This document shows, one piece after another, positions 9,301 through 63,645 of a stretch of DNA of 64,000 nt. Made by a program: the position numbers and the translations under genes. Each line of letters begins with the position of its first letter. Position 1 is the stretch's first letter. The stretch is from Anadara kagoshimensis. Its lineage: Eukaryota > Mollusca > Bivalvia > Arcoida > Arcidae. Location: positions 39,105,771-39,169,770 of the forward strand of contig CM037867.1 in NCBI GenBank assembly GCA_021292105.1, read 5' to 3'. Below the pieces are notes generated by a model. That model was given only the letters and a program-made list of their open reading frames with translations. It did not search any database and was not told the origin of the DNA.

Positions 9301-12300
9301 CATTAAGTGAGTATCTTGTTAAACTAATTATGTGAAGAGTAAAATAAAAAATTGAAAATAATGCATAGCATCTCATATTCATATCAATTAAGGAGTATTT
9401 ATTACAATCCTTCAAGAATGTAGTTTTTTTTATTTCTTTTTGCAGAATGTTTGAAAAAAATGCCAGTATTTCTGAACTGCTTCAGACATGATTTGTCCTG
9501 GGCCAGAGGTAATGAATATTTTATTATCAAAAATGGTACTATTCCACAATAAATAATATTGCCATTCCAGTCATTTGACTTTTTGAAATTTGGCTGAAAA
9601 TAAACTTTAAAACCTAAATGTGTAAAAATGTTTAAATGACTTTTGATAAATTCTTTACAATTAATCCTGCTGAAAAGGTGTAAGCATTGTCTGTGAAGTC
9701 TTATTCTCATCTTTTAATTTGGAAACGAAAGCAGAAACAGACACTGCATATGTTGTGCTTGTGAAATTTCTTAAAACATTAATTGAAATTTTAAATATCA
9801 ATTAGTGAAAAAAAAATTCCACAAAATATTTTTTCCAGGAAATTCAATGGAAAAAAATAATAAACTCTTTATTTCACTGTTAAGTTTCGATAAGTTTATC
9901 ATTTCAAGTTGGGGATGCTTTCAGTATCAATGTCAAGGTCAAACTTTGCAATCAATCAGTTGAAATTTTATAATTCTCTAATTATACTTCCAGAGGGTAC
10001 AGCAGTGCAACATCCTCAACAGGAGGTTGAATATTCTACACAACCTATGCATGATGATATGGTTCAACCTACAGAAGATGGTATGGTAAGACCCTTGTCC
10101 CTGGATATAGTACAATCTACACAAGATGATATATCTACACAAGATGATATGGTACAACCTTCTCTAGATGGTATGATACAACCTTCAAAAAACAATATGG
10201 TACCACATTTGCCAAATAATATGGTACTTGTGCCAGATGATGTGGTACAGCCCTTGCCAGATGAAAATGTGCAACCTTCACAAGATATGCAACAACCTTT
10301 GCCATATGATATGGTACAACCTACACAAGATGATATTTTACAACCTACACAAGATGATATGCTACAGCCTACACAAGATGATATTGTACATCCTACACAA
10401 CATAATATAGTACAACCTTTGCCAGATTATATTGTACAACCTACACCAGATGGTATGGTACATCCTACAAAACATAATATGGTACAACCTTTTCATGATA
10501 TTACAGAACAACCTTTGCAAGATGATATTGCACAACCTACGCAAGATGATATTGTACAACCTACACAAGATGATATTGTACAACCTACACAACCTACACA
10601 AGATGATATTGTACAACCTACACAACCTACACAAGATGATATTGTACAACCTACACAAAATGATATTGTACAACCTACACAAAATGATATTGTACAACCT
10701 ACACAAAATGAAATGGTACAACTTACACAAGATGATATTGTACAACCTACACAAAATGAAATGGTACAAACTACACAAGATAATATGGTACATCCTACAC
10801 GACATAATATAGTACAACCTTTGCCAGATATTACAGTACAACCTTTGCCAGATTATATTTTACAACCTACACCCGATGATATTGTACATCCTACAAAACA
10901 TAATATAGTACAACCTTTGCCAGATAATACAGTACAACCCTTGCCAGATTATATTGTACAACCTACACCAGATGGTATGGTACATCCTACAAAACATAAT
11001 ATGGTACAACCTTTTCATGATATTACAGTACAACCTTTGCAAGATGATATTGCACAACCTACGCAAGATGATATTGTGCAACCTATGCAAGATGATATTG
11101 TACAACATAGACAAGATAAAATGGTACAACCTACAAAAGACGATATTGTACAATCTACACAAGATGAAATGGTACAACCTACGCAAGATGATATTGTACA
11201 ACCTACACAACCTACACAACCTACACAAGATGATATTGTACAACCTACACGACATAATATAGTACAACCTACACAAGATGATATTGTACAACCTACACAA
11301 AATGAAATGGTACAACTTACACAAGATGATATTGTACAACCTACACAACCTACACAAGATAATATGGTACATCCTGCACGACATAATATAGTACAACCTA
11401 CACAAGATGAATTGGTACAACCTACACAAGATGAATTGGTACAACTTACACAAGATGATATTGTACAACCTACACCAGATGGTATTGTACAATCTACACA
11501 AGATGAAATGGTACAACCTACACAAGATGATATAGTACAACCTACACAAGATGAATTGGTACAACCTACACAAGATGAAATGGTACATCCTACACAAGAT
11601 GAAATGGTACAACCTACACAAGATGATATTGTACAACCTACACAAGATGAAATGGTACTTCCTACACAAGATGAAATGGTACATCCTATACAAGATGATA
11701 TGGTACAACCTACACAAGATGGTATTGTACATCCTACACAAGATGGTATTGTACAACCTACACAAGATGATATTGTACAACCTACACAAGATGAATTGCT
11801 ACAACCTACACAAGATGAAATGGTACAACCTACACAAGATGAAATGGTACATCCTACACAAGATGAAATGGTACATCCTATACAAGATGGTATTGTACAA
11901 CCTACACAAGATGATATTGTACAACCTACACAAGATGATATTGTACAACCTACACAAGATGAAATGGTACAACATAGACAAGATGATATTGTACAACCTA
12001 CACAAGATGAATTGGTACATCCTACACAAGATGAAATGGTACATCCTACACAAGATGAAATGGTACAACATAGACAAGATGATATTGTACAACCTACACA
12101 GATGAATTGGTACATCCTACACAAGATGAAATGGTACATCCTACACAAGATGAAATGGTACAACATAGACAAGATGATATTGTACAACCTACACAAGATG
12201 AATTGGTACATCCTACACAAGATGAAATGGTACATCCTACACAAGATGAAATGGTACAACATAGACAAGATGATATTGTACAACCTACACAAGATGATAT

Positions 12301-21929: not shown

Positions 21930-22085
21930 CCAGTTGTTATTACCTCTAAATTAAAGGCGGATGACCCTTCAGTAAGCAATAACTTTCGATTTTAACATCT
22001 TAAAAATGACGTGGCTAGTAATCGAACTCAAAACCTCCCGTTCTTGAATTGGACACTCCAACCATTACGCTACCAAGAGTGAATG

Positions 22086-22410
22086 GAGTAATGGTGTTTA
22101 ACGTCCCAGTCAAGAATATTTCACTTACATTGAGACATTGCCAGCTATAGGCGAAGGTGCAGAAATTTTGCCTGTGCGTTGCCCTAATGGCATTATACAG
22201 CAGGGTTCTTTATCATGCCACGCCTACCGTGACACGGAACCTCGTTTATTTTAAGTTCCCATCTGAAAGAACTGACTTTCGTTTCGTAATGCTGAGTGCT
22301 TGGCGAAAGAGCAGTCACTACCCACTCTCAAGTCGTGGGTCAGACCCGGCCGGGTTCGAACCCACGACCTCCCACTTACGGAGTGAGCACTCTACCAACT
22401 GAGCTACTGC
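22086..22410 (-). mobile_element. tRNA-derived SINE, family A, near full length
   Basis: The minus strand reads GTAGCTCAGTTGGTAGAGTG (A box), then GTGGGTTCGAACCC (B box), then a body with GACTGCTCTTTCGCCAAGCA, and a tail AGTCAAGAATATTTCACTTA in reverse. The same body recurs at 46583, 50605, 58124, 62639 (plus) and 42348, 63352 (minus). The tRNA-like head and Pol III boxes define a SINE. It is not a functional tRNA gene. Confidence 0.85.
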
Positions 22411-23260: not shown

Positions 23261-25130
23261 ACTACAGTGTTTGGGTGGTTGAACAACAGTGTGTTTAGGT
23301 GGTATCTAGTGTGTTTGAATGGTTGAACTAGTGTGTTTGGGTGGTTATACTGCAATGTATTTGAGTGGCTGAACTAGTGTGTTTGGGTGGTTGTACTACA
23401 GTGTGTTTGCGTGGTTGTACTACAGTGGTTTGGGTGGTTGTATGACAGCGTGTGTGGGTGGTTGGCAACGTGTTTTAGTGGTTGTATGACAGTGTGTGTG
23501 TGTGTATTTTATAGATAGCACTATTGGGGCCATGACCCAATAATATATATATAGCATTTTTGAGTTTACTCAATACATATGCTTCACTACACTAGTACAT
23601 TGTACTACAGTGTTTGGGTGGTTAAACAACAGTGTGTTTGGGTGGTATCTAGTGTGTTTGAGTGGTTGTAATACAGTGTGTTTGAGTGATTGAACTAGTT
23701 TGGGTGGTTGAAATAGTGTGTTTGGATGGTTGGACTACAGTGTGTTTGGGTGGTTGTATGACAGTGTCTTTGAGTGGTTGTATGACAGCATGTTTGAGTG
23801 GTTGTATGACAGTGTGTTTGAGTGGTTGTATGACAGTGTCTTTGAGTGGTTGTTTGACAGTGTGTTTGAGTGGTTGTATGACAGTGTCTTTGAGTGGTTG
23901 TATGACAGCATGCTTGAGTGGTTGTATGACAGCGTGTTTAGTTGTTGTATAACAGCGTGTTTGAGTAGTTGTATGACAATGTGTTTTGGTGATCGTATGA
24001 CAGTGTCTTTGAGTGGTTGTATGACAGCATGCTTGAGTGGTTGTATGACAGTGTGTTTGAGTGGTTGTATGACAGTGTCTTTGAGTGGTTGTATGGCAGC
24101 GTGTTTGAGTGGTTGTATGACAATGTGTTTGAGTGGTTGTATGACAGTGTGTTTGAGTGGTTGTTTGACAATGTGTTTGAGTGGTTGTACGACACGACAG
24201 CGTGTTTAGTTGTTGTATGACAGTGTGTTTGAGTGGTCGTACGACACGACAGCGTGTTTAGTTGTATGACAGTGTGTTCGAGTGGTTGTATGACACGACA
24301 GCGTGTTTAGTTGTTGTATGACAGTGTGTTTGAGTGGTTGTATGACACGACAGCGTGTTTAGTTGTTGTATGACAGTGTGTTTGAGTGGTTGTTTGACAG
24401 CGTGTTTGAGTGGCTGTATGACACGACAGCGTGTTTAGTTGTATGACAGTGTGTTTGAGTGGTTGTTTGACAGTGTGTTTGAGTGGCTGTATGACACGAC
24501 AGCGTGTTTAGTTGTTGTATGACAGTGTGTTTGAGTGGTTGTTTGACAGCGTGTTTGAGTGGCTGTATGACACGACAGCGTGTTTAGTTGTATGACAGTG
24601 TGTTTGAGTGGTTGTATGACACGACAGCGTGTTTAGTTGTTGTATGACAGTGTGTTTGAGTGGTTGTTTGACAGCGTGTTTGAGTGGCTGTATGACACGA
24701 CAGCGTGTTTAGTTGTATGACAGTGTGTTTGAGTGGTTGTATGACACGACAGCGTGTTTAGTTGTTGTATGACAGTGTGTTTGAGTGGTTGTTTGACAGC
24801 GTGTTTGAGTGGCTGTATGACACGACAGCGTGTTTAGTTGTATGACAGTGTTTGAGTGGTTGTATGACACGACAGCGTGTTTAGTTGTTGTATGACAGTG
24901 TGTTTGAGTGGTTGTTTGACAGCGTGTTTGAGTGGCTGTATGACACGACAGCGTGTTTAGTTGTTGTATGACAGTGTCTTTGAGTGGTTGTATGACAGTG
25001 TGTTTGAGTGGTTGTACTACAGTGTGTTTGGGTGGTTGTACTACAGTGTGTTTGGGTGGTTGTGGTACAATGTGTATGGATTGTTGTATGGCAGTTTGTT
25101 TCAGTGGCTGTACTACAGTTAGATGAATGA
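23260..25130. repeat. Non-coding minisatellite, about 24-bp unit with higher-order structure
   Basis: The basic unit is about GTGTGTTTGAGTGGTTGTAT plus GACA. From about 23260 to 23740 units are irregular (GGGTGGTTGTACTACAGTGT). From 23740 to 24190 they are regular. From 24190 to 24970 a longer pattern appears, with CACGACAGCGTGTTTAGTTG inserted at intervals, giving a higher-order period of roughly 120-130 bp. Open frames on both strands come from the unit length being a multiple of three, and no gene signals flank them. Confidence 0.9.
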
Positions 25131-26473
25131 ATTGTTGATAGCACGTTACACAAAAACAAAAATTATATTTCACGTTACCGGTTAAATAAATTCATGTTAA
25201 TATTACAATAATGCCAAATGAAATGAGGCGACAAAAATATGGTATTCCATCGACATGTTTTTGAGATGGTTTGAAGACAATATTTTATTTGAATTATAAT
25301 GGAAAACGACATGCAATGCATTTTTGAGTACGATAACGAAACATAATCACAAAAAGTATAATGGTGGAAAAGTGGTCTAATGCGTCCATGTGCTGTATAT
25401 GAATTGTATTGCTTTTTCCCAGCGAAGTCAGAATTTGCTGTATCGCTAAGGGAATCTAGTTACTTGCAGTGTGAAACTATATGTGTACATTTAAGATTTC
25501 ACAGTGACTGAGTAGATGAACATATGAACATCTCAAAAAAAAAAAACCGGAGATGATAAGCGTTTTGGCATGCATAGGCCTGGCTTGTGAATTGTTCTAG
25601 TGATTTCTACAGTTTTCCAAACCTTTCTACAAAAATTTTGAATGGGTATATGTTGAACCAATTCTGACTTTATTTACCGGGCTTATATTGAACAAAATGC
25701 AGAAAGAATGAAATTGAAATAACAATTCCCCAACAACAGGCTGGACCATGTGTAATGGTGTAAAATTAGGTGTAATTTGTTAAAGTTAAATATTGGTTAA
25801 ATATTAGATATTAAAAGAAAAACCTTAATTTGAATGTTTAAATTTAGATTCTAATTAGCCATAGTTTTATGAAAAATTAAGATATTAAGAAAGTTGTCTT
25901 TAAGTTATATAATTGATAAAAATCTATAGTGTTAATTAATTTCTTTGAACTCGGAAATAAGGTATAGGGTGTAATATTATTTTTAGCAATTAGAATATAT
26001 CACTTGTCAAATTGACCCCTTGGTTGTAAAAGTTGTGTTCGATTTAACAGTCGTTCTGACGTGTAAATTATCCTTATAATTCGATAAACCCAGAGGTAAA
26101 AAGATAGAAATCTATCGTCTTAATAATAATTAATAAATAATAAATAATCTTTAATGTTGAAATTTGGAAAAGTTAAAGAATAAATCGTTAGCATCTTTTG
26201 TCTTGATAAATAAAATTGTCCTAGTTGAAACGTTGGGCGGCAAATTTAAAATAAATAGAGTACGCACTAAAATTTGACTACAGGGCAGTCCAGGTCCGTT
26301 AAATAGTTTGGCCAGATTGTCCATCCTCACATTACTATGCGAGATGGAATAAATATAATAAAATGGATCTGGATTTGTTTGTTTTAAGATCTTAGACATG
26401 CCAAGCGAGTGCTCGAGAAACATGAGCTAAATTCCCCTGATAGATGAGATTCGAACCCGAGTCAGAGCGAGGA
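25131..26473. other. Gene-free AT-rich stretch before the retroelement
   Basis: No exon, RNA gene or clear repeat is recognised. Immediately upstream of the LTR a GATTCGAACCCGAGTCAGAG string resembles a tRNA-type B box and could be a SINE remnant. Confidence 0.5.
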
Positions 26474-26565
26474 TGTAACACCCGCAATCCTGCTCCACCG
26501 TGCTGTGTATTATCGAGATAAGAAGGAAAAACCGGCGACACGTCCCGAGAAAGGAATGCACAGCA
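26474..26565 (+). repeat. 5' LTR (core)
   Basis: It starts TGTAACACCCGCAATCCTGC and includes CGACACGTCCCGAGAAAGGA and GCACAGCATAATA. It aligns with 33520-33617 with scattered differences. Homology stops at about 26565. The sequence after it (TTTGGTGGATGAAGAGTGGA) could be the primer-binding region, which is not verified. Confidence 0.7.
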
Positions 26566-26670
26566 TAATATGTTTGGTGGATGAAGAGTGGAAGTAACGG
26601 TACCAGGACGAAAACTACAGAGCTAAAGAAATGAAGATACCAGGTCCATCGATGTAAAGTCACATCCAAG

Positions 26671-27900: not shown

Positions 27901-28203
27901 AAACTATAAGACAGCTATATAGGGAAATAAGATGACTTTAGTTCCTGTTAAGATACCAGAGAAATTCAGAGGTAAGAATGTTATTTTGAAACCAAATGAT
28001 TATTTGAAAGCTTTAGAACTGTTTAGTGAACACTAAAGGTAAGACTGCAATGGTGCAGATAGTGAATCTATATAATGAGAAGATATATTGCCAAGAAATA
28101 GATCTGTGGCATCTATATCAGAGATCGAGCCGGGTTCTATAAAAAACTGGTCAACAATATTGAAAGTAAATCAGGTAAGAGGCAAAATAGCTTAAATTTT
28201 GAC

Positions 28204-29220
28204 TTGCCAAAGTCATGTCTTTCAAAGAATGAAAAGGACAAATTATTGAAGTTCCCCAAGGAAAACAGACAGGTTTTCTCTACATATTTATTTGAAATAG
28301 GTCTGACAGATGTATATAAGCATGAAATTAATACAGTTGAGAACTCTCCAGTTAGTTTGCCACCGCACAGGGCAGCACCAAAGGCAAGACAGGAAATAGA
28401 AAAAAGATAGAAGAAATGCTCAAAAACAATATTATCAGTCCTTCTAACTCTATTTTGCATAGTCCAGTTGTAATGGTAAAAAAATCAGATGGTAGTTTCC
28501 GGTTCCTTTGTGACTTTCGTCTTTTAAACCAGAACATAAAACCAATGTCATTCCCATTGCCAAATTTAAATGATGTTTTTGACACAATTGGAGGGAGGAA
28601 ACCTCAATTTTTTTCCACAATTGGTTGATCTCAATCTTTTTGGCAAATCTCTCTCCATGAAAATAGTAAGGCCAAAGCAGCGTTCATAACGCATTCAGGA
28701 ATTTACGAATAGAACCGTATGCCCTATGGATTATAAATAGCAGTATTTCTTTTTCACAAGTGATGAGAGGTTTGAACTGGAAAATGTGTTATGTTACATA
28801 GATGATTTACTGATCTTGAGCAAGGATTTTAATGAACATCTTGAGCATTTAGAAGAAGATTTTACTAGGTTAAGGAAAGCAAATCTAACGCTAAAACCAG
28901 AAAAGTGTCATTTTGGTGTCACAGAAGTGAAATATTTAGGTCACATAATATCAAAAGATGGAGTCAAGGTAGATAATTCAAAAATTGAACTTGTCAGAAA
29001 TTATCCAGTACCACGAAATCAGCATGAGGTTAGACAAATATTAGGATTATGTAATTATTATAGGAGGTTCTCTAAAGATTATGCAAAGATAATCATTCCT
29101 TTAAATGCTCTTCAAAAAGATAAACCTTTTGTTTGGGATGATAAATGTCAGAAATCTTTTGAAGCTTTGAAAACTGCACTGCACTTACGTCCACACCTAT
29201 TTTGTCTTATCCAGATTTGA
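28204..29220 (+). pseudogene. Retrotransposon reverse transcriptase remnant
   Basis: It begins with a segment containing LPPHRAAPKARQEIEK (a P-x-R-x-x-P-like entry motif). Then come SPVVMVKKSDGSFRFLCDFR and FPLPNLNDVFDTIG, typical fingers motifs of Ty3/gypsy RT. The Y-I-D-D catalytic box is at 28795-28806. The thumb follows with GHIISKDGV and LGLCNYYRRF. Stops occur at 28408, 28627 and several near 28700-28760, and the first catalytic-Asp region is disrupted. Confidence 0.85.
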
Positions 29221-29627
29221 ACAAACCATTTATTCTTACAACTGACGACTTAGGTTCAGCTATAGGGTACATTTTAGGCCAGTTAGATGTTGAAAATAAG
29301 GAACAATATATTTTATATGGTGGGCGTACACTTAGAAATAAAGAGAAAAATTGGACAATAACTGAAAAAGAATGTTTGGCTGTATTAGAAGGTATTATGA
29401 AAAACAAAGTTTATCTCTCACATGCTAAGTTTCAGGTTTACACTGACCATCAAGCGTTAGTTTGGTTATATAAATCTAAAGATACAAATTCAAGGTTAGA
29501 AAGGTGGGCTTTAGAATTGCAAAATTATAGTTTTGATGTTATTTACAAAGAAGGTAAAAAGAATCAAAATGCTGATGCTATATCTAGAATACCTTATGAT
29601 AATGTAGACAATAACGAACAAAAATGA
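29202..29627 (+). pseudogene. Retrotransposon RNase H domain
   Basis: FILTTDDLGSAIGYILGQ holds the first acidic residue region (usual T-D-A-S/D-x-x-x-G). WTITEKECLAVLEGI holds the E motif, and FQVYTDHQALVWL the D-H motif. NADAISRIPY is the usual end of the connection to integrase. It is the most intact block of this element, open for 141 codons, but it overlaps the RT frame with a shift. Confidence 0.85.
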
Positions 29628-29798
29628 GTGACACATGTAAATAGTATTGACAGTAGGTCAGACGTGACTGTAACAGTTGTTATGTTTGAATATATACAAG
29701 GCAAACCGTTAGTCGCGGTTATTGACAATGACACCGTAGAATTAAATGATGTGCCCAGTATTTGTTAGCTTCAGGGACAATGTCCAGAGCTAAAAAAC

Positions 29799-30946
29799 TT
29801 GATAAATTATCTTAAGATAAATGAACTTCCGGACGACCCGAAAAGAGGTCGAAATTTATGCTATGAAAGAGACCACTATAGGTTAGGTGCTATGGTCGAG
29901 CTTATACACTTATATCGATCACGTACTAAGGGTGTACATAAGGCAGAAAGTATGATAGAACAGTTGGTTCTCTCCAAGACATTAGACAAGACGCATTACG
30001 TGCTTACCACGACTAGTACTGTAAAGCAGGTGGTGGACACACAGGTGTTAAGAAAACTTTCAGTGCTCTAAATCTAAAGTATTATTGGAACGGTATGACT
30101 CAGCAAGTATATGATTATGTAACAAGTTGTGATAAGTGCCAGAGAGCTAAACAACCGACTCATCATCGGCCAGATTCATTAATGCCCTTACCCACAGAGG
30201 GCACTTTCTCATGTTGGCACATGGACATACTCAAATGTTTGCCTAAATCAAAAGAAGGGTACCAGCACATCTTGCTAGTTGTAGATAGTTTTTCTAGATG
30301 GCCTGAAAGTTTTCCCTTAAAACGCAAGAAGCGACTGAAGTAGCAGAAGTTCTATATAACGAGATATTTAGTCGCTATGGTGCGCCAATTGGTAAGTGAT
30401 CGTGGCCAGACATTTATGTCAAAGTTAGTACAAGCACTGTGTGAACTGTTTTATGTAAGTCGACACCACACTAGTTCTTATCACCCACAGTCCAATTCTA
30501 CTTGTGAAAGGATGAATCGCACGATAGCTCAGACGTTACGGACATATTGTGGCAGTGACCAGTTAAATTGGCCAAAGCTTTTACCAAGTGTAATGATGGC
30601 AATGCGTATGTCTCCAAATACTGAGTCAACAGGGTTTTCTCCGTTTTAATTGTTATTTGGTAAAGAAATGAATTTACCCTTTGACATAAATGTTCAGCCA
30701 AAACCACAAATGGGTAAAACTGCTAAGGAACATTTGGAGGAGTTGATTGATAGACTGAAAATTGTTAAGTCGATTGTAAAAGAATCAAAAGACCAATCAC
30801 AAGTGAAGGCCAAGGCGCCTGAATTTGAAGCTGGTGATATGGTAATGTTAAAAGCAATGAAAGTACCTAAAGGATTATCTCCCAAGTTACATGTAAAGTG
30901 GGATGGTCCCTTTTACATTGTAGACGTTAGAGATAATCATACATGA
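29799..30946 (+). pseudogene. Retrotransposon integrase remnant
   Basis: The zinc-binding region has an H near 30039 and CDKC at about 30127-30140. The D,D-35-E core is seen as HMDIL (about 30221), SDRGQTFM (about 30397) and STCERMNR (about 30498). A C-terminal SH3-like segment with FEAGDMVMLKAMKVPKGLS and KWDGPFYIVDVRD runs to the insertion point. There are stops at 30069, 30341 and 30647 with frame shifts, so it is not functional. Confidence 0.82.
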
Positions 30947-32649: not shown

Positions 32650-33519
32650 TGAACCTAATTCTCTCATATCTAAATTTGTCAAAATTCTTCAAGAAAGTTG
32701 GTTGTCATACTTTAGAATATAAGTTAAATTGCCAACATTTGATGATGTTCATCAAAGATATTCTCCACATAGTGGTAATAAGAATGGGAAAATCAACATT
32801 AGAATGAATGGTTGAAAATTAATCAAAAAATAAAAATATCACTATATGTTTTGACGAAGGGTATTCAAATAGCTAGATAAGCAAGGATTTTTTGTAACAT
32901 AAAAGTTGTTACTTGTGATATTGTTTGTAATCAATTTAATTTAATTTCAGGTTGTTAACATTTATCTTTAGGGGAAAGTAATCATAGCGGTCAAAGTAGT
33001 GATGCATTCGCATCCAATTGTTGTATATACATTATTAGTTTCAGGTACATAAAGGATTGAGTTGCTGATGTGAGGCATTTGCCCCCAATTGTTTGCCCAA
33101 CGTGTATTGTAAATTTTTTTTTTATTTACATGACTGGTTTGTGAGAACATCGGCTGTCGAAGGAAGGCAACGAGAAAACTGACGATAAGAGATGGTTGAA
33201 GAAAAACTATGTTAATGGAGAAAAGGCCATGACTGATGACAGAGGGCGACAGTATCAGCTGACAGACTGGATAAAAAGACTTTAAAACTGAAATGCTGCT
33301 ATGGAAACGACTGACTTCTTGATCTGAGTTTGGAATGTAAAGCCATAAACGAGAAGGACTTGTGTTTGGAATTATGAACTTAACTATGAATTCAATGTGA
33401 TTCCTAATTGCGACCATAATATGGACTAACTTAAAATATTGACAAAAGAAATTAATATTATGAGCTGTAATCTGTATCAAACATGATAGTACCAGGATCG
33501 TGTATGTTATCCGCTTTGA

Positions 33520-33617
33520 TGTAACACCCGCAATCCCGCTCCGCCCTGCTGTGTATTCCGGGATCAGAAGGAAAACACCAGCGACACGTCCCGAGAGGGA
33601 ATGCACAGCATAATACA
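33520..33617 (+). repeat. 3' LTR (core)
   Basis: TGTAACACCCGCAATCCCGC through CGACACGTCCCGAGAGGGAA to GCACAGCATAATACA. It pairs with 26474-26565. No matching target duplication was found next to the two copies. Confidence 0.7.
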
Positions 33618-37116: not shown

Positions 37117-40100
37117 AAAAATAAAAGCTAGAATAAAATGTTTACTGTACCATGTCTGAAGGACTTTATGACGTTACCGGTTAAAAATAGTGATGGATTA
37201 TGGGTAAATTTTAAAGATGTTTTCGTTTTCCTGAAAAAGCATCTCTTAAAATCCGACACACTCAAAGACATTAAGAAATACAACTTGATAAAAGAATTCA
37301 AGCGACATGGAATGGATAACTACCAAGAGGTTGAAGAGGAGATATTTATCGGAGTCGCTTCGTTACTTCGCTATTTCTTTAATCACTACGACCATCTTGA
37401 AATTTGCCGAGAGGTAGTACACCAGATTTTGGATCAGATCATCTCGGCTCCAATTAACTCAGATGAAGGTATGATAAAATTTTATTAAAATGCTTCTTTA
37501 TTATTTAGCCACCTTGCTTATCACTACTTATTTGATACAGTAAAACATGTTTATAATGAAACCCTGGGGACTTTTTTTTTAACTTTATTATAAAGTGACT
37601 TCGTTATATTTTTATAAATAGACTTATATAGAGGAGTGGTCGGACCTAGTATTTGACTTCGCACTATCCACATATTTGGTTTAAGGGTGTGTATTTACAA
37701 TTGGAATTGACCTTCTTTAAATGAACCTATTTGCTTTACTGGCATTCAATTGCTCTTGAAAACAGTGTGGGGTCATGACCTTTGGTTACGTAACGTTTAA
37801 CTATTCGATTACATCACGTCATGCATTTTTTGATTGGTCAGCATCCAAGTCTACCCCCGACCTAACTTTCCTTATTTGGAGCAAGGCTGTTCCATCAATA
37901 CCGTATGTTTGTCGGAATCTTGAATGAAATAAATTATCGTAGCAATAATTTTTATTTCGGACATGCTATCAATATTTTTTATGATTGTAAATAAAGCAGT
38001 TCATGTTAAATATGCTATTCCTGACTCATAATACCGAATGAATACACTCAAATAGAATGTTATTTCTTAATTGTTATATTCATGTTTTACTGTATTGTAA
38101 AAATTATAGCATATGTTTACACTATGTAGCAAAAAAAAAAAAAACTTTATTATATTGATACAATTGCAGAAACTTAGGTGAGTCCTGTAATTTAAGATCT
38201 TTGATCAACAGAGCTTTTCATAAGAGACCAAAGGTTGAAAGCTTCTCTGGTGAGACCTGTGATGGATAGATTCTATCAGGCGAGACCTTTTGATCTATGG
38301 ATTCTTGTTAGATAGGGTTTTCGTATTTTGACACATGTAATTGTATTTAACTTCTTGACTTGATGATTCTTTCTATTTTATTAAACACTAAAACAATATC
38401 TCTTCTACAGAAGATAATGACAAGTCACTGAAAGATGAAAGCATGGAAATACGATTTAATACTGAATGGTTATCTGATGGCGATGATGTTCCTCGGTCAG
38501 GATTAAAACTATACATCAGTAGTAAGTATACAGTCAAATGTATGTTAAAGGCCATCTCTATATAAGGGCCACCTGTTTATAAAGGCCATCTCTATATAAG
38601 GGCCACCTGTTTATAAAGGCCACTCTATATAAGGGCCACCTGTTTATAAAGGCCATCTCTATATAAGGGCCACCTGTTTATAAAGGCCATCTCTATATGA
38701 GGGCCACCTGTTTATAAAGGCCATCTCTATATAAGGGCCACCTGTTTATAAAGGCCATCTCTATATAAGGGCCACCTGTTTATAAAGGCCATCTCTATAT
38801 GAGGGCCACCTGCTTATAAAGGCCATCTCTATATAAGGGCCACCTGTTTATAAAGGCCATCTCTATATAAGGGCCACCTGCTTTATAAAGGCCATCTCTA
38901 TATGAGGGCCACCTGCTTATAAAGGCCATCTCTATATAAGGACCACCTGCTTATAAAGGCCATCTCTATATGAGGGCCACCTGTTTATAAAGGCCATCTC
39001 TATATGAGGGCCACTTGCTTATAAAGGCCATCTCTATATGAGGGCCACCTGTTTATAAAGGCCATCTCTATATGAGGGCCACCGTTATAAAGGCCATCTC
39101 TATATGAGGCACCTGCTTATAAAGGCCATCTCTATATGAGGGCCACTTGCTTATAAAGGCCATCTCTATATAAGGCCACCTGTGTTATAAAGGCCATCTC
39201 TTATGAGGGCCACCTGTTTATAAAGGCCATCTCTATATGAGGGCCACCTGTTTATAAAGGCCATCTCTATATGAGGGCCACCTGCTTATAAAGGCCATCT
39301 CTATATGAGGGCCACTTGCTTATAAAGGCCATCTCTATATAAGGGCCACCTGTTTATAAAGGCCATCTCTATATGAGGGCCACCTGTTTATAAAGGCCAT
39401 CTCTATATGAGGGCCACCTGTTTATAAAGGCCATCTCTATATGAGGGCCACCTGTTTATAAAGGCCATCTCTATATGAGGGCCACCTGCTCATAAAGGCC
39501 ATCTCTATATAAGGGCCATCTGTTTATAAAGGCCATCTCTATATAAGGGCCATCTGTTTATAAAGGCCATCTCTATATAAGGGCCATCTGTTTAAAGGCC
39601 ATCTCTATATAAGGGCCATCTGTTTATAAAGGCCATCTCTATATAAGGGCCATCTGTTTATAAAGGCCATCTCTATATAAGGGCCATCTGTTTATAAAGG
39701 CCATCTCTATATAAGGGCCATCTGTTTATAAAGGCCATCTCTATATAAGGGCCATCTGTTTATAAAGGCCATCTCTATATGAGGGCCACTTGCTTATAAA
39801 GGCCATCTCTATATGAGGGCCACTTGCTTATAAAGGCCATCTCTATATGAGGGCCACTTGCTTATAAAGGCCATCTCTATATGAGGGCCACTTGCTTATA
39901 AAGGCCATCTCTATATGAGGGCCACCTGCTTATAAAGGCCATCTCTATATGAGGGCCACTTGCTTATAAAGGCCATCTCTATATGAGGGCCACTTGCTTA
40001 TAAAGGCCATCTCTATATGAGGGCCACTTGCTTATAAAGGCCATCTCTATATAAGGGCCACCTGCTCATAAAGGCCATCTCTATATAAGGGCCACCTGCT

Positions 40101-43100
40101 CATAAAGGCCATCTCTATATAAGGGCCACCTGCTCATAAAGGCCATCTCTATATAAGGGCCACCTGCTCATAAAGGCCATCTCTATATAAGGGCCACCTG
40201 CTCATAAAGGCCATCTCTATATAAGGGCCACCTGCTCATAAAGGCCATCTCTATATAAGGGCCACCTGCTCATAAAGGCCATCTCTATATAAGGGCCACC
40301 TGCTCATAAAGGCCATCTCTATATAAGGGCCACCTGCTCATAAAGGCCATCTCTATATAAGGGCCACCTGCTCATAAAGGCCATCTCTATATGAGGGCCA
40401 CTTGCTTATAAAGGCCATCTCTATATGAGGGCCACTTGCTTATAAAGGCCATCTCTATATAAGGGCCACCTGCTCATAAAGGCCAGTAAAATTTTATGTC
40501 GATTGGTTTTCAGTGGCATGGCTCCCTATACGCCAAGACGCAGAGGCGTGCACATCTTCATATCCACAATGATGTAGACATTAATTTAGACCAGGTTATT
40601 GACACGTTTGATGGACAGAAAGACAGGAACATGTTATTAATTAAGTTGTTGAACTTATAGACAATATTATTATCAATGTGAACAAAATTATGTTTCATTA
40701 ATGTTCTTCTAACTATTCAGGAAATTAGTTAAGTTAAAGTCTGTCCCGAGCCATTAGGCCCATCAGGCCGGAGCTTATCCCGGTTTCCGTGGCGTTAAGC
40801 GACTGAGAGTACAAGACTCTCCCCTGAATGGGACGCCGGTCCATCGCAGGGTTAACCCCCAGCATATTGCTGGTACTCATTTATTTTTCAGCTGAGTGAA
40901 CTGGAACAATGTGAAACTAAGTGTCTTGCTCAAGGACACAACACATCGCCCGGTCCAGGGATCGAACCCATGACCTTCGAATCATGAGTCCAACGCCTTA
41001 ACCACTAGGCCACGCGCTTCCATTCAGGAAATTAGGATATAGATATATATACAGAACCAATTATTAAATGCCATCAGATTGCACCAATTCTTTTCTGAAA
41101 TGCCACCAGATTACACCATCTGACATCAACGTTTAAAAATTTTACGAGTGAGCGTGCCCCCGGACCCCCTAGGACATTCGTGCCTTTGGCACTCGCATCG
41201 TAAATTCTCCTAATCATTAATGGCACAGCTTGCAGATCAATTTTTGCTAGCTACGCCACTGCTTTTATACATATTTTTGAACCTGTTTATAAGGGCCACC
41301 TGCCTGTATTTACTGTTTTTCTCAGTTTGCCTTTATGGACAGGTTTGACTGTATATGCCAAATGCCAGTACAGTACCTAGCAGGTTTTACCGTACAATGG
41401 TTTCTGAACTGAAACCTTTGTTGCCATGGTTTTTGGTAAATTATATTAATACATTGTATTTTCATGTCAGGGTTCACACTTTCTCAAAATTTTTTGTCAC
41501 AAATTTTAAACAAAAGTAGTAGAAAGTTTAAGTCTTCTAGAATATATTTTCTAATTAGAGACAAATTTTTTTGTCGCAACATAAAAATATTGCAAATTGC
41601 AACATTTGCAACTGACAGTATGAGCACTTCATGTATTGATAAAAGCAGGCCAAGTTCTATTGTGATATATTTTGGTTTATGTTCTCTCCTTGTAAATTTT
41701 ATTGATACAAATGTAAATGCTGGACTTTTGTATACATGTATGTTAATTAAAATTCTTGTTAATTTACAGATGAAGTTGATGTGAAAGAAGAACCAGAAGA
41801 AATTCAGGAATTTCAGACACACAGCCGGTCATCTACAGGTATGGTTTAGTCTGTGTTTCCATTCCAAGTAACCAAAATCACCATTGACTACTAATTTTTA
41901 AAAAAATCTTTAAATTGTTTTTTTACCTGTTTTTTGCAAATAATTGAAAAAATAATTTAAAAAGTATTATATTAATGCATATGTTGGAAATTTGACTACT
42001 TATAATTTTAAAATTGTGGAAACCTAGTCAGTGTTTAAAATTTCTAATAAAAATTCTGACTTGTGAATTGTGATCCTTTAAGGATTGTACGCATGTTTAT
42101 GAAAACAATTTGTCTTCTTAGTTATGAAATTTTTACTAAAGAGGAAAGAATTATTATTATTTTATTGCAATTTTCAGAATATTCTTCATAAAATATTGTG
42201 TTAATTTTTTGGTCAAAGCTTTGAAACTCAAACTGTTTCCTTTGGTAAAACAAAGAATATTAAGAACGTTTGAAGTGTTGTTACTGTGATTTGCCATATG
42301 TTTTGAAGTTTATGGAACATAAAATAAGGCATCCGTACAGAGTTGAGCAATGGTGTTTAATGTCCCAATCAAGAATATTTCACTTATTTTGAGACGTTGC
42401 CAGTTATAGGCGAAGGTGCAGAAATTTTGCCTGTGTGTAGCGATTATGGCATTATACAGCAGGGTTCTTTATCATGCCACCCATACTGGGACATGGGAAC
42501 GCGTTTATTTCTAAGTTCCCATTTTTTTGTCAAATTGTTTCATATTCAAAATTTCAGATATTTAAATTACCATTTGTATGAATACATGTGTAAAATAGTC
42601 AAATCTTTTAAGTATTAGGTCTGGACAAATAAAAAGTGAAAAAAAGTTCACTCAGTTTCAAATTCAAATTTATTAAAAGACAAAGTTTATTTTTCAGAAA
42701 TAGAAGACAATTTTGAGTACAGTTCTGTTAAATTGCAAAATTTAGAATCAAATCCAGCGTTGTCTACACCAGGTAAAAACTTTTTTAGTAAATAACATAA
42801 AAAAATACAGAAATTCTCTCCATGGAACCAGAACACCTGTCATGTGGTAGGTGACACAACACATATGTGTCAGATGACCTCAACACCTGTACATGTAATG
42901 TAGTAGGTGACACAACACATATGTGTCAGATGACCTCAACACCTGTCATGTTGTAGGTGACACAACACATATGTGTCAGATGACCTCAACATAAGTCATG
43001 TGGTAAGTGACACAACACATGTGTCAGATGACCTCAACACCTGTACATGTCATGTAGTAGGTGACACAACACATATGTGTCAGATGACCTCAACACCTGT

Positions 43101-44737
43101 ACATGTCATGTAGTAGGTGACACAACACATGTGTAAGATGACCTCAACACAAGTCATATGGTAGGTGACACAACACATGTGTAAGATGACCTCAACACAA
43201 GTCATGTGGTAGGTGACGCAACACATGTGTAAGATGACCTCAACACAAGTCATGTGGTAGGTGACACAACACATATGTGTCATATGACCTCAACACAAGT
43301 CATGTGGTAGGTGACAAAACACGTGTAAGATGACCTCAACACAAGTCATGTGGAAGGTGACACAACATATGTGTCAAATGACCTCAACACCTGTACCTGT
43401 CATGTGCTAGGTGACAACACATATGTGTTGGATGACCTCAACACCTGTCATGTGGTAGGTGACACAACACATATGTGTCAGATGACCTCTTGCCTGTTAT
43501 CTTTGCATTATTGAAAACTACCAGTGAAAACACAAATAAATAATTGTTTAAATTGATTTATTTGATCATATTTTTATATATATAAAAAACCAAACATTTA
43601 AAAAGTTAAGTTTTTTTTGCATCTTTTTATGCTTGATCATAAAAAACTCATTCAAATATTCCACTTTAAGTAACTTATTTGTTTTTATATTTCACAGAAA
43701 TTGAAGATGAAGATGCAGAAAATTCAAACAGGAGCAATAAATCCATGAAAAATTCTTCATCCAGTGATTACACAGATGAGTTGATGCCTTATGAAACACA
43801 TTTGAAATTTCATGCGAATAAAAAATCTTACGAGTGTGATTACTGTGATGTTGCTTTTAAAAGCGACATCTCAAAAGCATTGGATAAAAAAAATTATTTA
43901 TCTCAGGTTGTGACAGGTGTAAAAACAAAGGCAGTCGTTTGCAAGAAAAAAGATGCCAAAAATGGTGTCAAGTCTAAAACACCGACAAAAAGGAGGAGTG
44001 GTTTCAAGGCAGAGTCAGAGTTAGAGAAGAAGTATGCCTGCCAACATTGTGATAAGAAATTTAAGCGCAAAGGAAGTTTACGAGGTCATCTGATGACACA
44101 TGAGGAAAAGAAAACGTTTGCATGTCCAACGTGCAACAAAGTATATCCTCGGCAATCATTGCTTTCCTATCATGAACGGACACATTCAGGAATACGGCCA
44201 TATGTTTGTAAAATTTGTGGCGCTAACTTCACCTTGAAATCCCGCCTCAGCAGACATCTTAAAGGTCATTCTGGAGAAAAGCCTTATTCATGTAACATAT
44301 GCCAGGCTTCGTTTGTGCAGTCTTACGATTTAACAAGACATGCAAGGATTCATAGTGGGGAGAAACCTTTCGTGTGCGAATTTTGTTCAGCCGCATTTAC
44401 TCAGTCGTCAAATCTCACCTTGCATTTAAGAACGCACACAAAAGAAAAACCGTACGAGTGCCATATTTGTGATGCAAGATTCGCCCATTCATCATTCCTC
44501 ACACGTCATCTCCGAATTCATTCAGGCATTAAACCATATAAATGCCAGATTTGTTCTGTGGCGTTTACTCAGTCATCGAATCTCACATGTCATTTACGAA
44601 CTCACTCAGGAGAAAAACCGTACCAATGTGAAATTTGTCTAAGTAGGTTTACACAGTCTTCCAACCTAAAAAGCCACATGAAGGTTCATACACGTGCAAT
44701 ATTACGCCCATCTCAGATTCAGACATCAAATTTTTGA
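37117..44737 (+). CDS. C2H2 zinc-finger protein gene, five coding exons
   Basis: Exons are 37138-37468 (start ATG at 37138 in an exon opening at 37117 after TTTTTCAG), 38411-38521, 41770-41838, 42698-42772 and 43698-44737, all joined in phase 1 with GT..AG borders. The N terminus (about 110 aa) is helical with no recognised family. The middle exons are acidic and Ser-rich and include VKEEPEE, a possible SUMO site. The last exon carries eight consecutive C2H2 fingers with TGEKP-like linkers. It is likely a nuclear DNA-binding protein. The stop is TGA at 44735. The downstream frame to 44951 may belong to it (see separate entry). The upstream acceptor implies a non-coding first exon that was not located. 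Confidence 0.85.
37138..37468 (+). CDS. Zinc-finger gene exon 1: unrecognised N-terminal domain
   Basis: It starts MFTVPCLKDFMTLPVKNSDG and runs through FLKKHLLKSDTLKDIKKYNL and VASLLRYFFNHYDHLEICRE to the donor GTATGA at 37469. It reads as a compact helical domain, which I do not recognise. The ATG is the first in frame after the acceptor at 37116. Confidence 0.8.
37538..38092. mobile_element. CAGTAAAAC MITE, intron 1 of the zinc-finger gene
   Basis: The left end is CAGTAAAACATGTTTATAAT and the right end ATTCATGTTTTACTG, flanked by TA on each side. It is a 555-bp relative of the element at 30963-32344. Confidence 0.78.
38411..38521 (+). CDS. Zinc-finger gene exon 2
   Basis: Between the acceptor CTTCTACAG and the donor GTAAGT at 38522. 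It reads EDNDKSLKDESMEIRFNTEW, then LSDGDDVPRSGLKLYIS. It is acidic with no known domain. The intron following it begins only nine bases before a repeat-filled mobile element. Confidence 0.8.
38548..40486. repeat. 34-bp minisatellite, about 57 copies
   Basis: The unit is GGCCATCTCTATATAAGGGC then CACCTGTTTATAAA (34 bp). Runs of identical variants occur in blocks: TATATGAGGGCCACTTGCTT (39780-40040), TATATAAGGGCCATCTGTTT (39510-39770), and TATATAAGGGCCACCTGCTC (40050-40380). This is the pattern expected from recent local duplication. A few units have one-base losses. Confidence 0.95.
40748..41024 (-). mobile_element. tRNA-derived SINE, family B
   Basis: The minus strand begins GCGCGTGGCCTAGTGGTTAA (A box) then GGTTCGATCCCTGGACC (B box), followed by GTGTCCTTGAGCAAGACACT and a CCAGTTCACTCAGCTG segment. 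The body with a TTGAGCAAGACACTTAG core is widespread among invertebrate SINEs. It lies inside the minisatellite-bearing element. Confidence 0.82.
41770..41838 (+). CDS. Zinc-finger gene exon 3
   Basis: Acceptor AATTTACAG, donor GTATGG. It reads EVDVKEEPEEIQEFQTHSRS after the junction codon. VKEEP fits a SUMO-conjugation consensus (hydrophobic-K-x-E), common in C2H2 repressors. Confidence 0.8.
41851..42027. mobile_element. Small MITE, CTGTGTTTCCA..TGGAAACCTAG
   Basis: The ends are CTGTGTTTCCATTCC and GTGGAAACCTAG. It shares internal CACCATTGACTACTAATTT and TTTGACTACTTATAATTTT with the copy at 55602-55773 and the partial copy at 52671-52781. Confidence 0.65.
42348..42523 (-). mobile_element. 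Family A SINE, 3' part only
   Basis: It matches the tail half of 22086-22410 (AGAATATTTCACTTATTTTG, AGGCGAAGGTGCAGAAATTT, TTATACAGCAGGGTTCTTTA) and lacks the tRNA head, so it is 5'-truncated. Confidence 0.8.
42698..42772 (+). CDS. Zinc-finger gene exon 4
   Basis: Acceptor TTTTTCAG, donor GTAAAA. It reads EIEDNFEYSSVKLQNLESNP then ALSTP. Its EIED start matches the EIEDED start of the next exon, which suggests exon duplication in the past. Confidence 0.78.
42830..43490. repeat. Intronic minisatellite, about 50-65-bp unit
   Basis: The unit is approximately CACCTGTCATGTGGTAGGTG, ACACAACACATATGTGTCAG, ATGACCTCAA. There are about 11-12 copies in intron 4 of the zinc-finger gene. The ACACATATGTGT core is palindromic. 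Variants lose the TATG or insert TACATG. Confidence 0.92.
43698..44737 (+). CDS. Zinc-finger gene exon 5: eight C2H2 fingers
   Basis: The acceptor ATATTTCACAG ends at 43697. After an acidic/Ser lead and a half-finger (YECDYCDVAFKSD, lacking the His pair) and a Lys-rich linker, eight complete C2H2 fingers run from YACQHCDKKF (about 44034) to HMKVH (about 44690). Linkers are of the T/H-S-G-E-K-P-Y type. Fingers 5, 7 and 8 share QSSNL at the recognition helix, and finger 4 has QSYDL. The frame stops with TGA at 44735-44737. Confidence 0.92.
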
Positions 44738-46582: not shown

Positions 46583-46889
46583 GTCCGTAAGTGGAAGGTC
46601 GTGGGTTCGAACCCCGGCCGGGTCTGACCCAAGACTTGAAAGTGGGTAGTGACTGTTTTTTCGCCAAGCACTTGGCATTCCGAAATGAAAGTCACGGTTC
46701 TTTCGGATGGGAACTTAAAATAAACGAGGTCCCGTGTCACGGTGGGCTTGGCACGCTAAAGAACCCTGCTGTATAATGCCATAAGCGCAACGCACAGGCA
46801 AAATTTTTGCACTTTCGCCTATAGCTGGCGACGTCTCTATATAAGTGAAATATTCTTGACTGGGACATTACATAAACACCATTACTCAT
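46583..46889 (+). mobile_element. Family A SINE
   Basis: GTGGGTTCGAACCCCGGCCG (B box), AAGTGGGTAGTGACTG, TTCGCCAAGCACTTGGCATT, and tail ATATTCTTGACTGGGACATT. The head is slightly shortened at the A box. Confidence 0.85.
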
Positions 46890-46919
46890 TCACTCATAAT
46901 TTACATGGTGCTACATTTA

Positions 46920-50604: not shown

Positions 50605-50925
50605 GATAGCTCTGTTGGTAGAGCGTTCACCCTGTAAGTGGGAGGTCGTAAGTTCGAGCACTGGCCAGGTCTGACCCAAGACTTGAAGGTGGGTTCACTG
50701 TTCTTTCCCCAAGCACTCAGCATTACGAAATGAAGTCACAGTTCTTTCGGATGGGAACTTAAAATAAATGAGGTCCCGTGTCACGGTGGGCTTGACAGGC
50801 TAAAGAACCCTGCTATATAATGCCATCAGCACAACGCACAGGCAAAATTTCTGCACATTTGCCTATAGCTGGCAATGTCTCGATATAAGTGAAATATTCT
50901 TGACTGGGACGTTACACAATTACTC
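50605..50925 (+). mobile_element. Family A SINE, full length
   Basis: GATAGCTCTGTTGGTAGAGC (A box), GTAAGTTCGAGCACTGG (B box, mutated), GAACTTAAAATAAATGAGGT, tail ATATTCTTGACTGGGACGTT. Confidence 0.85.
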
Positions 50926-51239
50926 TACTTAACTCTTATCCAGTGGGCCACCACCTAATGAGTGGAGTAATGGCATTATAGATTCATTCACTTATCCCTC
51001 TTATATCAAAGCAAACTAGTAAAGTGTTTTCACAATAAGAATTATTTCAATGGGATTCAACCAAGGTCAAGGTGTTCAAATCGAAGTGGTTATCCATAAG
51101 CCCTTGCTTTAAGCTACCAAGCCACCGAGACCACCACCAACCTAATGAGCATGTGTTGGCAGCTGCCATCCTGACAAAACCCTGTGCATCAACCATGCTA
51201 CATAGGTGACAAAAGAGACTAGTACATGTAATAGTGTTT

Positions 51240-58123: not shown

Positions 58124-58727
<604 letters not shown>

Positions 58728-58956
58728 AAAGATAACTAAAAGATCACATGTCTGCAAACTTTCCACATTTTAAGTACCACGTGTTGTCTTTATATACAGG
58801 TGAGCTGTAGCATGTATGGCTAAAATGTTGCTGATTAAAAATACCCCTTGTAGCTGTAAAGTCGACATAATCGGCAAAGAAAGTGAAATTCTTCGTTATT
58901 TCGAATTTCTGATAACGACTACTACTTAAACTGTTTGGTACTACTGTCAAATACCA

Positions 58957-59040
58957 CATTTTTAATTTAATCATAAAATACATTTGGCAGTAGACAATAT
59001 ACCATTTTTTTAAATGTATTTTATGATTAAATTAAAAATT
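58957..59040. repeat. Inverted pair around AATCATAAAATACATT
   Basis: TTTTTAATTTAATCATAAAA (left) and TTTTATGATTAAATTAAAAA (right) face each other with about 30 bp between. A related ATTAATCATAAAATACATTA lies at about 60439. It borders the retroelement copies below. Confidence 0.7.
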
Positions 59041-59290
59041 TGGTATATGATATTTATGATATTTTGGTAAATTTCCTGCAAGTTAAAATTTGAAATTTCT
59101 CAAAAACTAAGGTGTACTCCCTCATGCAAAGTATTTCCTTAGCTTAATTTGGTAAAATATATTTTGGTCCTTTTGGTAGCTTGTCAACATCTTCAAAATA
59201 ATTTTGGTTTCATAATTTTGGTCCAAGCACTACTGATGAGGAATTGTATTCCGAAACGGTCGTCTAGTGCTGTAAAATTAAAACTGGTAT
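59041..59290 (+). mobile_element. Retrozyme/Penelope-like repeat copy, plus strand
   Basis: A sequence from AAATTTCCTGCAAGTTAAAA through ATGCAAAGTATTTCCTTAGC to TAGTGCTGTAAAATTAAAAC. It is the reverse complement of 59541-59765 and 59887-60095. It contains one hammerhead ribozyme at 59226-59271. Confidence 0.8.
59226..59271 (+). ncRNA. Type I hammerhead ribozyme, copy 1
   Basis: Stem I arms AGCACTA and TAGTGCT (7 bp). Core CTGATGA at 59233-59239. Stem II GGAAT-TGT-ATTCC. GAAA at 59253-59256. A very short stem III (AC..GT with a GGTC loop). The cleavage-site triplet GTC ends at 59264. All invariant core nucleotides of the hammerhead fold are present. Short-stem-III type I hammerheads are known from Penelope-like elements and retrozymes. 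Confidence 0.9.
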
Positions 59291-59567
59291 AATATGTAAT
59301 ACAACTATAATATGTTCTAACAAACTGAACTTATATGACAATCCCGTGGTGAATTTTTCCGAAACAACAAACACTCACGGGTACGGTTTACGTACGTTAG
59401 TCGTCGTCCGAAATTTCTGTATTTCACAAGTTAACTTGAAAAATTCTAGAACTCACTAAAACAAAATGGAGCAAACTAAGTATGTTGGATTTTACGGGTA
59501 ATCAGCCACCAGCAGAGATATCGGCTCAGGGGTTTAAATTCCATATTATACCAGTTTTAATTTTTAC

Positions 59568-59613
59568 AGCACTAGACGGCCGTTTCGGAATACAATTCCT
59601 CATCAGTAGTGCT
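59568..59613 (-). ncRNA. Type I hammerhead ribozyme, copy 2
   Basis: The reverse complement has AGCACTA / TAGTGCT stem I, CTGATGA, a 5-bp stem II, GAAA and GTC. The stem III region is ACGGCCGT, fully self-complementary, compared with ACGGTCGT in copy 1. Confidence 0.9.
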
Positions 59614-59906
59614 TGGACCAAAATTATGAAACCAAAATTATTTTGAAGATGTTGAAAAGCTACCCAAAGGACCAAAATATATTTGACCAAAGTAAGCTAA
59701 GGAATTACTTTGCATGAGGGAGTATACCTTAGTTTTTGAGAAATTTCAAATTTTAACTTGCAGGAATTTTAGACAATTATAGTATATTTTTGACAATAAT
59801 ACGAAATTATTACTTACTGAGTTGGTGATATCCTCGGGGCACCAGCCACCAGCAGAGATATCGGCTCAGGGGTTTAAATTACATATTATACCAGTTTTAT
59901 ATTTAC

Positions 59907-59952
59907 AGCACTAGACGGCCGTTTCGGAATACAATTCCTCATCAGTAGTGCT
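59907..59952 (-). ncRNA. Type I hammerhead ribozyme, copy 3
   Basis: It is identical in its conserved core to copy 2, including ACGGCCGT, and lies exactly 339 bp from it on the same strand. Cleavage at both sites would release a 339-nt RNA. Confidence 0.9.
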
Positions 59953-60134
59953 TGTACCAAAATTATAAAACCAAATTTATTTTGAAGATGTTGAAAAGCT
60001 ACCCAAAGGATCAAAATATATTTTACCAAAATAAGCTAAGGAAATACTTTGCATGAGGGAGTATTCCTTAGTTTTTGAGAATTTTCAAATTTTATATATT
60101 AAAGAAGGGCGATCTCGACAGACTACAAATTAAC

Positions 60135-61738
60135 TAAAGCCCCATTTATACGGCGAGAATTGCATACCTAAGTATTTTTACTCATATGTAAATTTACTCA
60201 CATAAGCAAAAGTATATTTTGCTTTGCGTTCATACATAATTTATGTACCATAAGTAAATTTGAAGTTTTCAACCAATTTTGAATAATTTTCATTCTGAAC
60301 ATTGAACAGTTTAGACTTTATTATCAGATAAGAACGTTCACTTACTATTTAAGCACTGATTTTATACTGGGCTATTATAATGACAAATGGGCAGTTCTAC
60401 TTGGTGATCCAGCATATCTGTCATATACCATTTTTGAATTAATCATAAAATACATTAAAAAATGTTATATGACATATCCTTAAAAGACTTGTTTTTTCAA
60501 GCTTTATGCAAACAAACAAAATTTTAGACCAGCACAGAGCACATTTATATACCGTCTTGTTAGGGTAGAACGACACTAGATCTTCGATATCTTTGGGTTG
60601 CTTGAATTGCCCATTGTGATGTTTGCAAAAAAGGGATTGACGTCCATGTCGTATTTGCTCGTTCTGTAAAAGGAGCTTGTGTTGTTCCTCATGACATATA
60701 TAAAATATTTAGATTAGCTAGTGTCTCCTAAAACCCAGTCTGGCCCCAAAATGTTTACAAATTTTAGCTATTTATTACATTAAAACTTCTTTTTTTCAGC
60801 TGAGCTGGACCCTAACTCAAAATAGTTAAGTTTCATCTCTGTATATGAAGCTGCAAATTGATTCTTTAGTGAACGGTGGAATGTTTTTTATTGAACTAGA
60901 TGGTGAAAATCATTTCAGTAATGTTGAAGATGATGATGTTTGTAATATTTGTTCTCCCAAAACACACTTCATGACGACATGGCATCTTCTTTCATGGACA
61001 ATTCGTTGTCAAATTTGTAAATGTAAATTTTCTTTGCATTCTGTGGTTGCCTTTTGTTGCTCAAGCACTTTCTCTTTGAAAACTAGTAAAACGTCAAATT
61101 TTGGTGACACTTTGTCACTAGTTTTTGTGCTTTTGTCAAATAAATATATTTCAATTACAACTTTTGATCTTTATTGGATAATAATTACAAATCAATGAGA
61201 GTCACGGTTGTTTATAGTGGTTGGCTTCTTTAACCGCTATGTGTTCGATTCCCGATTGTAACATCATATGTGGTGAGTGGGTTTCCCTTACAATAGGCAC
61301 CTGTTGGTTAGCTCGATGTCAATACACTGGGATGTGTGTAATGTGTATTTGCGACATTGTATATCATTGGACAACACTATTAAACAATTTTTTTTAGGTA
61401 CAAGGCAGATTACAAACACCCATATTCACTCCTGCACCACATGGACCTGAATGAACATTAACCCATAGAGATAAATAATCTGGCATTAATAAGTCCTTGT
61501 GTTTAAAATTATGAGTAAATATTACTGTGCGTTCATACGACACTGTAGCGAAATTTGCATACCTAAGTATAAAATACTTACACACTATAGCAAATTTGCA
61601 CTTGGTCCCTACTAGGTGCAAATTTACTTACATGAGTAAAATTTGCGTATATGCAAAGTTGTTCATACGACACAATTTGCATATGTGTGAGTAAAAAATA
61701 CTTAGGTATGCAATTCTCGCCGTATAAATGGGGCTTTA
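60135..61738. mobile_element. 1.6 kb element with about 45-bp inverted ends
   Basis: Left: TAAAGCCCCATTTATACGGC then GAGAATTGCATACCTAAGTA. Right: the exact reverse complement ending GGGGCTTTA. Subterminal repeats (ATTTGCATACCTAAGTATAA at about 61552, TTCATACGACAC at about 61510 and 61663) are present. An open frame at 60845-61198 (117 aa) has no recognised motif. A possible SINE remnant with TGTTCGATTCCCGATTG is at about 61240. Non-autonomous DNA element, family unknown. Confidence 0.75.
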
Positions 61739-62638: not shown

Positions 62639-62945
62639 TCGGTAGCATAGTGGTAGTGTTCGCTTCGTACATGCATATGGGAGGTCGTGGGTTCGAGCCC
62701 GGCAGGGTCTGACCAAGGTTTGAAAATAGGTAGTGACTTCTTTCGCTAAGCACTCGGCATCAAGTTACAAATGAAAGTCACGGGATCCTTCGGGAGAAAC
62801 CTCTAAAACCGATGTCCCGTGTCACGCCATGCGTAGCACGTTAAAGAACCCCTCGTTGTACATTAAAAAAACCCAGCCATTTCACCTTTTGCTGGTGACG
62901 TCTCAAAATAAGTGGAATATTCTTGACTGGGACGTAACTCTTCAA
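62639..62945 (+). mobile_element. Family A SINE, (AATC)n-tailed subfamily
   Basis: GGTAGCATAGTGGTAGTGTT (A box), GTGGGTTCGAGCCCGGCAGG (B box), TTCACCTTTTGCTGGTGACG, tail ATATTCTTGACTGGGACGTA, then (AATC)n and (CATC)n to 62995. Confidence 0.85.
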
Positions 62946-63351: not shown

Positions 63352-63645
63352 TTGATTGAATGGGGTTCTACATCCCAGTCAAGAATATTTAACTTATATT
63401 GAAACGTCACCGACTACAGTCGACGTGACTGAAAATTATACCTTTGCAGTGCGCAGTATGGGAGGGTTTTAACGTGACACACCTGTCATGGCGCTGGTTT
63501 TTAAGGTCTCTTCCGAAGGACCCCGTGACTTTGCATTTTTAAATGCCAATTGCTTGGCGAAAGAACAGCAACTATCCATTTTCAAGCCTTGGTCAGACCT
63601 GACCGTGATTCAAACCCACAAAGCGAGCACTCTACCAACTGAGGT
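63352..63645 (-). mobile_element. Family A SINE, reverse
   Basis: CCCAGTCAAGAATATTTAAC, CTTGGCGAAAGAACAGCAAC, GATTCAAACCCAC (mutated B box), CTCTACCAACTGAGG. It lies in the first intron of the secreted-protein gene. Confidence 0.82.

Follow-up and report, generated by a model that had tools for sequence, protein, structure and literature searches.

Hammerhead motifs and repeat structure

Three type I hammerhead motifs of 46 nt each, A on the plus strand and B and C on the minus strand, lie within copies of a short repeat in the window (the whole 64,000-nt stretch of Anadara kagoshimensis DNA analysed here). The features of the locus are as follows, with positions in the repeat unit counted from the cleavage site as position 1:

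59068-59300, plus strand: inverted truncated copy A, comprising unit positions 143-339 and then 1-36 (BLAST; inverted arms)
59226-59271, plus strand: hammerhead A, type I (pattern and stem descriptor; RF00163, 25.4 bits)
59301-59494: 194-bp spacer separating copy A from the tandem copy; the 3' ends of these two copies face each other across it
59495-60094, minus strand: tandem copy of about 1.8 units (unit matched to the window by BLAST; direct repeats)
59568-59613, minus strand: hammerhead B, type I (pattern and stem descriptor; RF00163, 28.1 bits)
59575-59913, minus strand: 339-nt unit delimited by the predicted C and B cleavage sites, 34.2% GC
59907-59952, minus strand: hammerhead C, type I (pattern and stem descriptor; RF00163, 28.1 bits)

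All three hammerheads have an intact core, and the descriptor assigns to each a stem I of 7 bp, a 5-bp stem II capped by a 3-nt loop, and a stem III of 2 bp capped by a 4-nt loop. The 46 nt of B and C are identical; the stem III loop, GGTC in A and GGCC in B and C, is the sole difference within the motif. An earlier note on this DNA had described three hammerheads carrying CTGATGA, GAAA and GTC with paired stems I and II, and both the pattern search and the descriptor find them as described. Cleavage is predicted 3' of 59264 in hammerhead A and, on the minus strand, at the 59575/59574 junction in B and the 59914/59913 junction in C. The latter two sites are 339 nt apart, in agreement with the spacing that the same note had given for two same-strand hammerheads.

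The tandem copy begins with unit positions 159-339 (60094-59914), continues through one full unit (59913-59575) and ends after approximately positions 1-79 (to 59495). No stop-to-stop frame of at least 90 aa is listed inside the 339-nt unit, and the spacer at 59301-59494 gave no BLAST match to the unit at E ≤ 1. Inverted arms of 232 nt, 93% complementary, relate A to B (59052-59283 and 59556-59787). Only the minus-strand pair B/C could release the 339-nt unit; motif A is inverted and is part of a separate truncated copy. The inverted third copy is most simply explained by a second insertion or a rearrangement, because it and its partner end at different places. Most likely, copy A is a family member that was inserted independently and truncated, or else a fragment of one that became inverted. 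A search for target-site duplications at four border pairs found no exact match of at least 8 nt; three pairs show exact 7-mers, and the A..B pair shows a 10-mer with a single mismatch.

Immediately to the left of copy A, at 58947-59050, is a short MITE-like palindromic repeat with 39-nt arms that are 95% complementary; on the right-hand side of the tandem copy, at 60413-60470, lies a partial relative.

Other features of the window

Copies of a roughly 300-bp dispersed repeat occur at 22075-22406, 42345-42522, 46584-46895, 50607-50937, 58127-58406, 62678-62935 and 63359-63643, the later copies being 67-90% identical to the first (22075-22406). The repeat has a tRNA-like match on the minus strand (22348-22407; RF00005, 30.4 bits), ARAGORN reports no tRNA, and the whole looks like a tRNA-derived SINE family. 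A broken LTR-type retrotransposon occupies 28102-30943, with RVT_1 (28741-29217) and RT_RNaseH (29163-29624) in different frames; integrase-like text at 30017-30646 was recognised by eye only, and Pfam gave no match for the frame at 30344-30646. What remains of the LTRs may be a direct repeat of 100 bp (26472-26570 and 33518-33615, 89%).

A large minisatellite with a 24-bp unit in 87 copies (10306-12417) lies inside an open frame (9909-12425) that is 838 codons long, and other large ones are found at 23610-25119 (24 bp, 62 copies), 38546-40485 (34 bp, 57 copies) and 42832-43489 (48 bp, 13 copies). The interval 58474-58726 consists of 33 perfect CAAT copies followed by an inverted GATT-type array, and the part at 58518-58726 matches its own reverse complement at 90%. 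Coding-like sequence includes a SET-domain fragment at 1096-1506, a 352-aa frame with many C2H2 zinc fingers at 43679-44737, and a frame at 12107-14011 whose residues 120-630 gave 76 protein matches, the best 72% identical. Five of these matches carry an organism name: the molluscs Mizuhopecten, Crassostrea, Patella and Pecten, and, as a weak match, the fish Denticeps (E 4.3e-4).

Chance, covariance models and divergence

The pattern CTGATGA-N4-30-GAAA-N4-25-GTC has four matches in the window, while 100 shuffles gave a mean of 0.25 and a maximum of 2, with none reaching 4. The fourth match (44090-44126, plus strand) was rejected, as it fails the descriptor demanding stems I, II and III. The chance rate of the descriptor itself was estimated by searching both strands of dinucleotide-shuffled versions of the window. 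A lax form (stem I of at least 4 bp, stem II of at least 3 bp) matched three times in 40 shuffles, and in 400 shuffles it matched 14 times, in 11 of them, with at most 3 per shuffle. The strict form (stem I of at least 7 bp, stem II of at least 5 bp) matched in none of the 400 shuffles, as against three times in the window; these three are homologous copies of one motif that has been multiplied, not three independent events.

With Rfam, the whole window at gathering thresholds yielded no hammerhead, its single match being a tRNA, and the 2 kb surrounding the motifs yielded no hammerhead at E ≤ 1. In narrow scans of 101 and 421 bases, RF00163 (Hammerhead_1) covers A, B and C at the expected positions, with E values of 0.00012 for A and 6.4e-05 each for B and C. 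This type I model aligns to all three in the narrow scans, but every score is below its gathering score of 34, so that the motif can be recognised, though it scores low.

Alignment of A, B and C over 218 columns shows 16 variable substitution columns and one indel. Eight of the changes are private to C, four to A and three to B, and one column holds three letters; since a tree cannot be drawn from three sequences that lack an outgroup, no branching order is assigned. Just one of these differences falls within the 46-nt motif; it affects the stem III loop in copy A, outside the core and the stems, and with numbers this small we claim no constraint. At insertion, near-identity of B and C would be expected had both come from one circle; either the insertion is therefore not a fresh one, or the template varied.

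Predicted RNA folding

The hammerhead fold of the 46-nt motif is predicted at -7.8 kcal/mol in each copy, compared with minima of -13.7 (A), -12.3 (B) and -12.3 (C), and so is the predicted energy minimum in none of the three. As a circle, the unit has 62.5% of its bases paired, and its z score of -0.53 against 100 mononucleotide shuffles indicates a stability no better than composition predicts. An extended stem I with an internal loop, as suggested by free folds, was unsupported: with the core enforced, shuffled flanks did equally well in 220, 210 and 149 of 500 cases. The same counts apply to the search for loop 1-loop 2 contacts, which covered the outer stem I extension only. Under an energy model that leaves hammerhead tertiary structure unscored, the folding results weigh mildly against efficient cleavage.

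Comparison with known retrozymes

Mollusc literature on this topic includes PMC7229834, the review PMC7761336 and PMC10886601, which mentions Mytilus; the main text of a paper on bivalve transposons (PMC10294476) contains no retrozyme, hammerhead or ribozyme. According to Cervera and de la Pena (2020, PMC7229834), Mytilus galloprovincialis has about 5000 type I hammerhead ribozymes (HHRs), usually in repeats of approximately 350-390 bp. The same paper reports that mussel retrozymes self-cleave in vitro at about 0.1 per minute and occur as circRNA in tissues, that the circRNAs are heterogeneous, that RtcB ligase circularises about 30% of the RNA as against about 1% by self-ligation, and that most archetypal loop 1-loop 2 nucleotides are missing from the HHRs. 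Mussel retrozyme circRNAs from that work are deposited in GenBank under MN642551-MN642576. Traits of metazoan non-LTR retrozymes are a type I hammerhead with an intact core, a tandem unit of approximately 150-450 bp, a GC content below 45-50%, a target-site duplication of more than 4 bp when one is present, the absence of an LTR, primer binding site and polypurine tract, a highly self-paired circRNA, and many copies in the host genome.

Of these traits, the locus has a type I hammerhead with an intact core, a tandem 339-nt unit and low GC, the last discriminating little because the surroundings are about equally low. It resembles the mussel retrozymes, as these are described, in that each unit has a type I HHR, in that the tandem repeats are short, low in GC and devoid of coding sequence, and in its mollusc host. 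It is unlike them in its unit of 339 bp (about 350-390 bp in mussel) and in the truncated inverted copy that adjoins the tandem. Plant LTR retrozymes, which have circRNA intermediates, also have a hammerhead pair flanking a small non-coding unit, but their HHRs are of type III, are separated by about 700 bp and are associated with LTRs (PMC7229834), whereas the descriptor and the RF00163 alignment indicate type I hammerheads here, with 339 bp between them. Pattern scans of viral and prokaryotic contigs, collections that are uninformative on animals, found no relatives.

The retrozyme-like arrangement proposed in the earlier note is well matched by this comparison: a 339-bp low-GC tandem, free of long frames and bordered by type I hammerheads, fits the metazoan non-LTR retrozymes as published (PMC7229834). 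With a probability of roughly 0.85, we read the locus as a genomic copy of such a retrozyme: a retroelement that is non-autonomous, measures about 340 bp and has a single type I hammerhead in each unit. Directly seen are the motifs, a tandem spacing of 339 nt, partial copies at either end and the lack of a long frame in the unit. In support are the descriptor-perfect motifs, the sub-threshold RF00163 alignments, a tandem with arbitrary ends, 34.2% GC and the mollusc host; against it stand the lack of a hammerhead at Rfam cut-offs, the non-minimal fold, the z score of -0.53 and the lack of an exact duplication of at least 8 nt. The locus belongs to a kind already described, and its arrangement adds no new kind; the opposed third copy is its sole unusual feature.

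Alternative explanations

It is quite possible, if short of an even chance, that the locus is a dead relic which no longer cleaves or is transcribed, a reading compatible with a retrozyme origin. The 16 substitutions and one indel among A, B and C over 218 columns point that way, as do the truncation of the copies, the inversion of one of them and a hammerhead fold above the energy minimum. However, only one difference lies in the 46-nt motif, where it affects the stem III loop and spares the core and stems, and divergence among copies has a parallel in the heterogeneous circRNAs reported from mussel (PMC7229834).

We think it unlikely that the repeats are pseudo-LTR (pLTR) fragments of an autonomous Penelope-like element (PLE) with tandem type I hammerheads. 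PLEs and Terminons do have type I HHRs within tandem repeats: PLEs are described as tandem or partial-tandem repeats (PMC11167929), with type I HHRs in their pLTRs (PMC7761336), and in favour of this reading the locus has a stem III of just 2 bp and no supported internal loop in stem I. Yet PLE motifs are characterised in PMC7761336 as minimal and usually without helix III, whereas a 2-bp helix III with a 4-nt loop is predicted here. PLEs also encode a reverse transcriptase and a GIY-YIG endonuclease, neither of which was seen in the frames examined: no such frame was found among the 12 of 46 listed frames that were scanned, nor in the frame at 12107-14011. Within 55-64 kb there are four frames of at least 90 aa, and the two of these that were scanned had no Pfam match. 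The 339-bp unit is itself too small to hold a PLE reading frame. Some 30 kb from the hammerheads is the one reverse transcriptase found in the scanned frames (28741-29624), and its RNase H is of the LTR type.

That the opposed third copy is part of a working element, through which the locus regulates its own family, seems very improbable to us. Read-through RNA of either strand would then carry an antisense arm of more than 200 nt against the ribozyme region, and could switch between an uncut, double-stranded fold-back form that is a precursor of small RNAs and a hammerhead that cleaves and sets circles free. Also very improbable is a fold-back DNA transposon with the motif present by chance in its terminal inverted repeats; in spite of inverted arms of 232 nt with 93% complementarity, it is set aside because the facing copies stop at different unit positions and the minus-strand copy continues into a tandem unit, and the borders offer no exact flanking duplication of at least 8 nt, only the 10-nt match with one mismatch at A..B.

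Implications of the retrozyme reading

Cleavage, ligation, reverse transcription and integration would follow at this locus by analogy with the published retrozymes of mussel and other animals. The unit released from the retrozyme transcript would be closed into a circle by a host RNA ligase, and the circle would be copied more than once around by a reverse transcriptase from another element; PMC7229834 regards PLEs as a strong candidate for supplying the mobilising enzyme of animal retrozymes. The resulting tandem cDNA would then be inserted at another place in the genome. The locus shows that such motifs can escape Rfam scans run at gathering cut-offs and, read as a retrozyme, this mollusc locus with its 339-nt unit joins the known class of self-cutting, circle-forming mobile RNAs.
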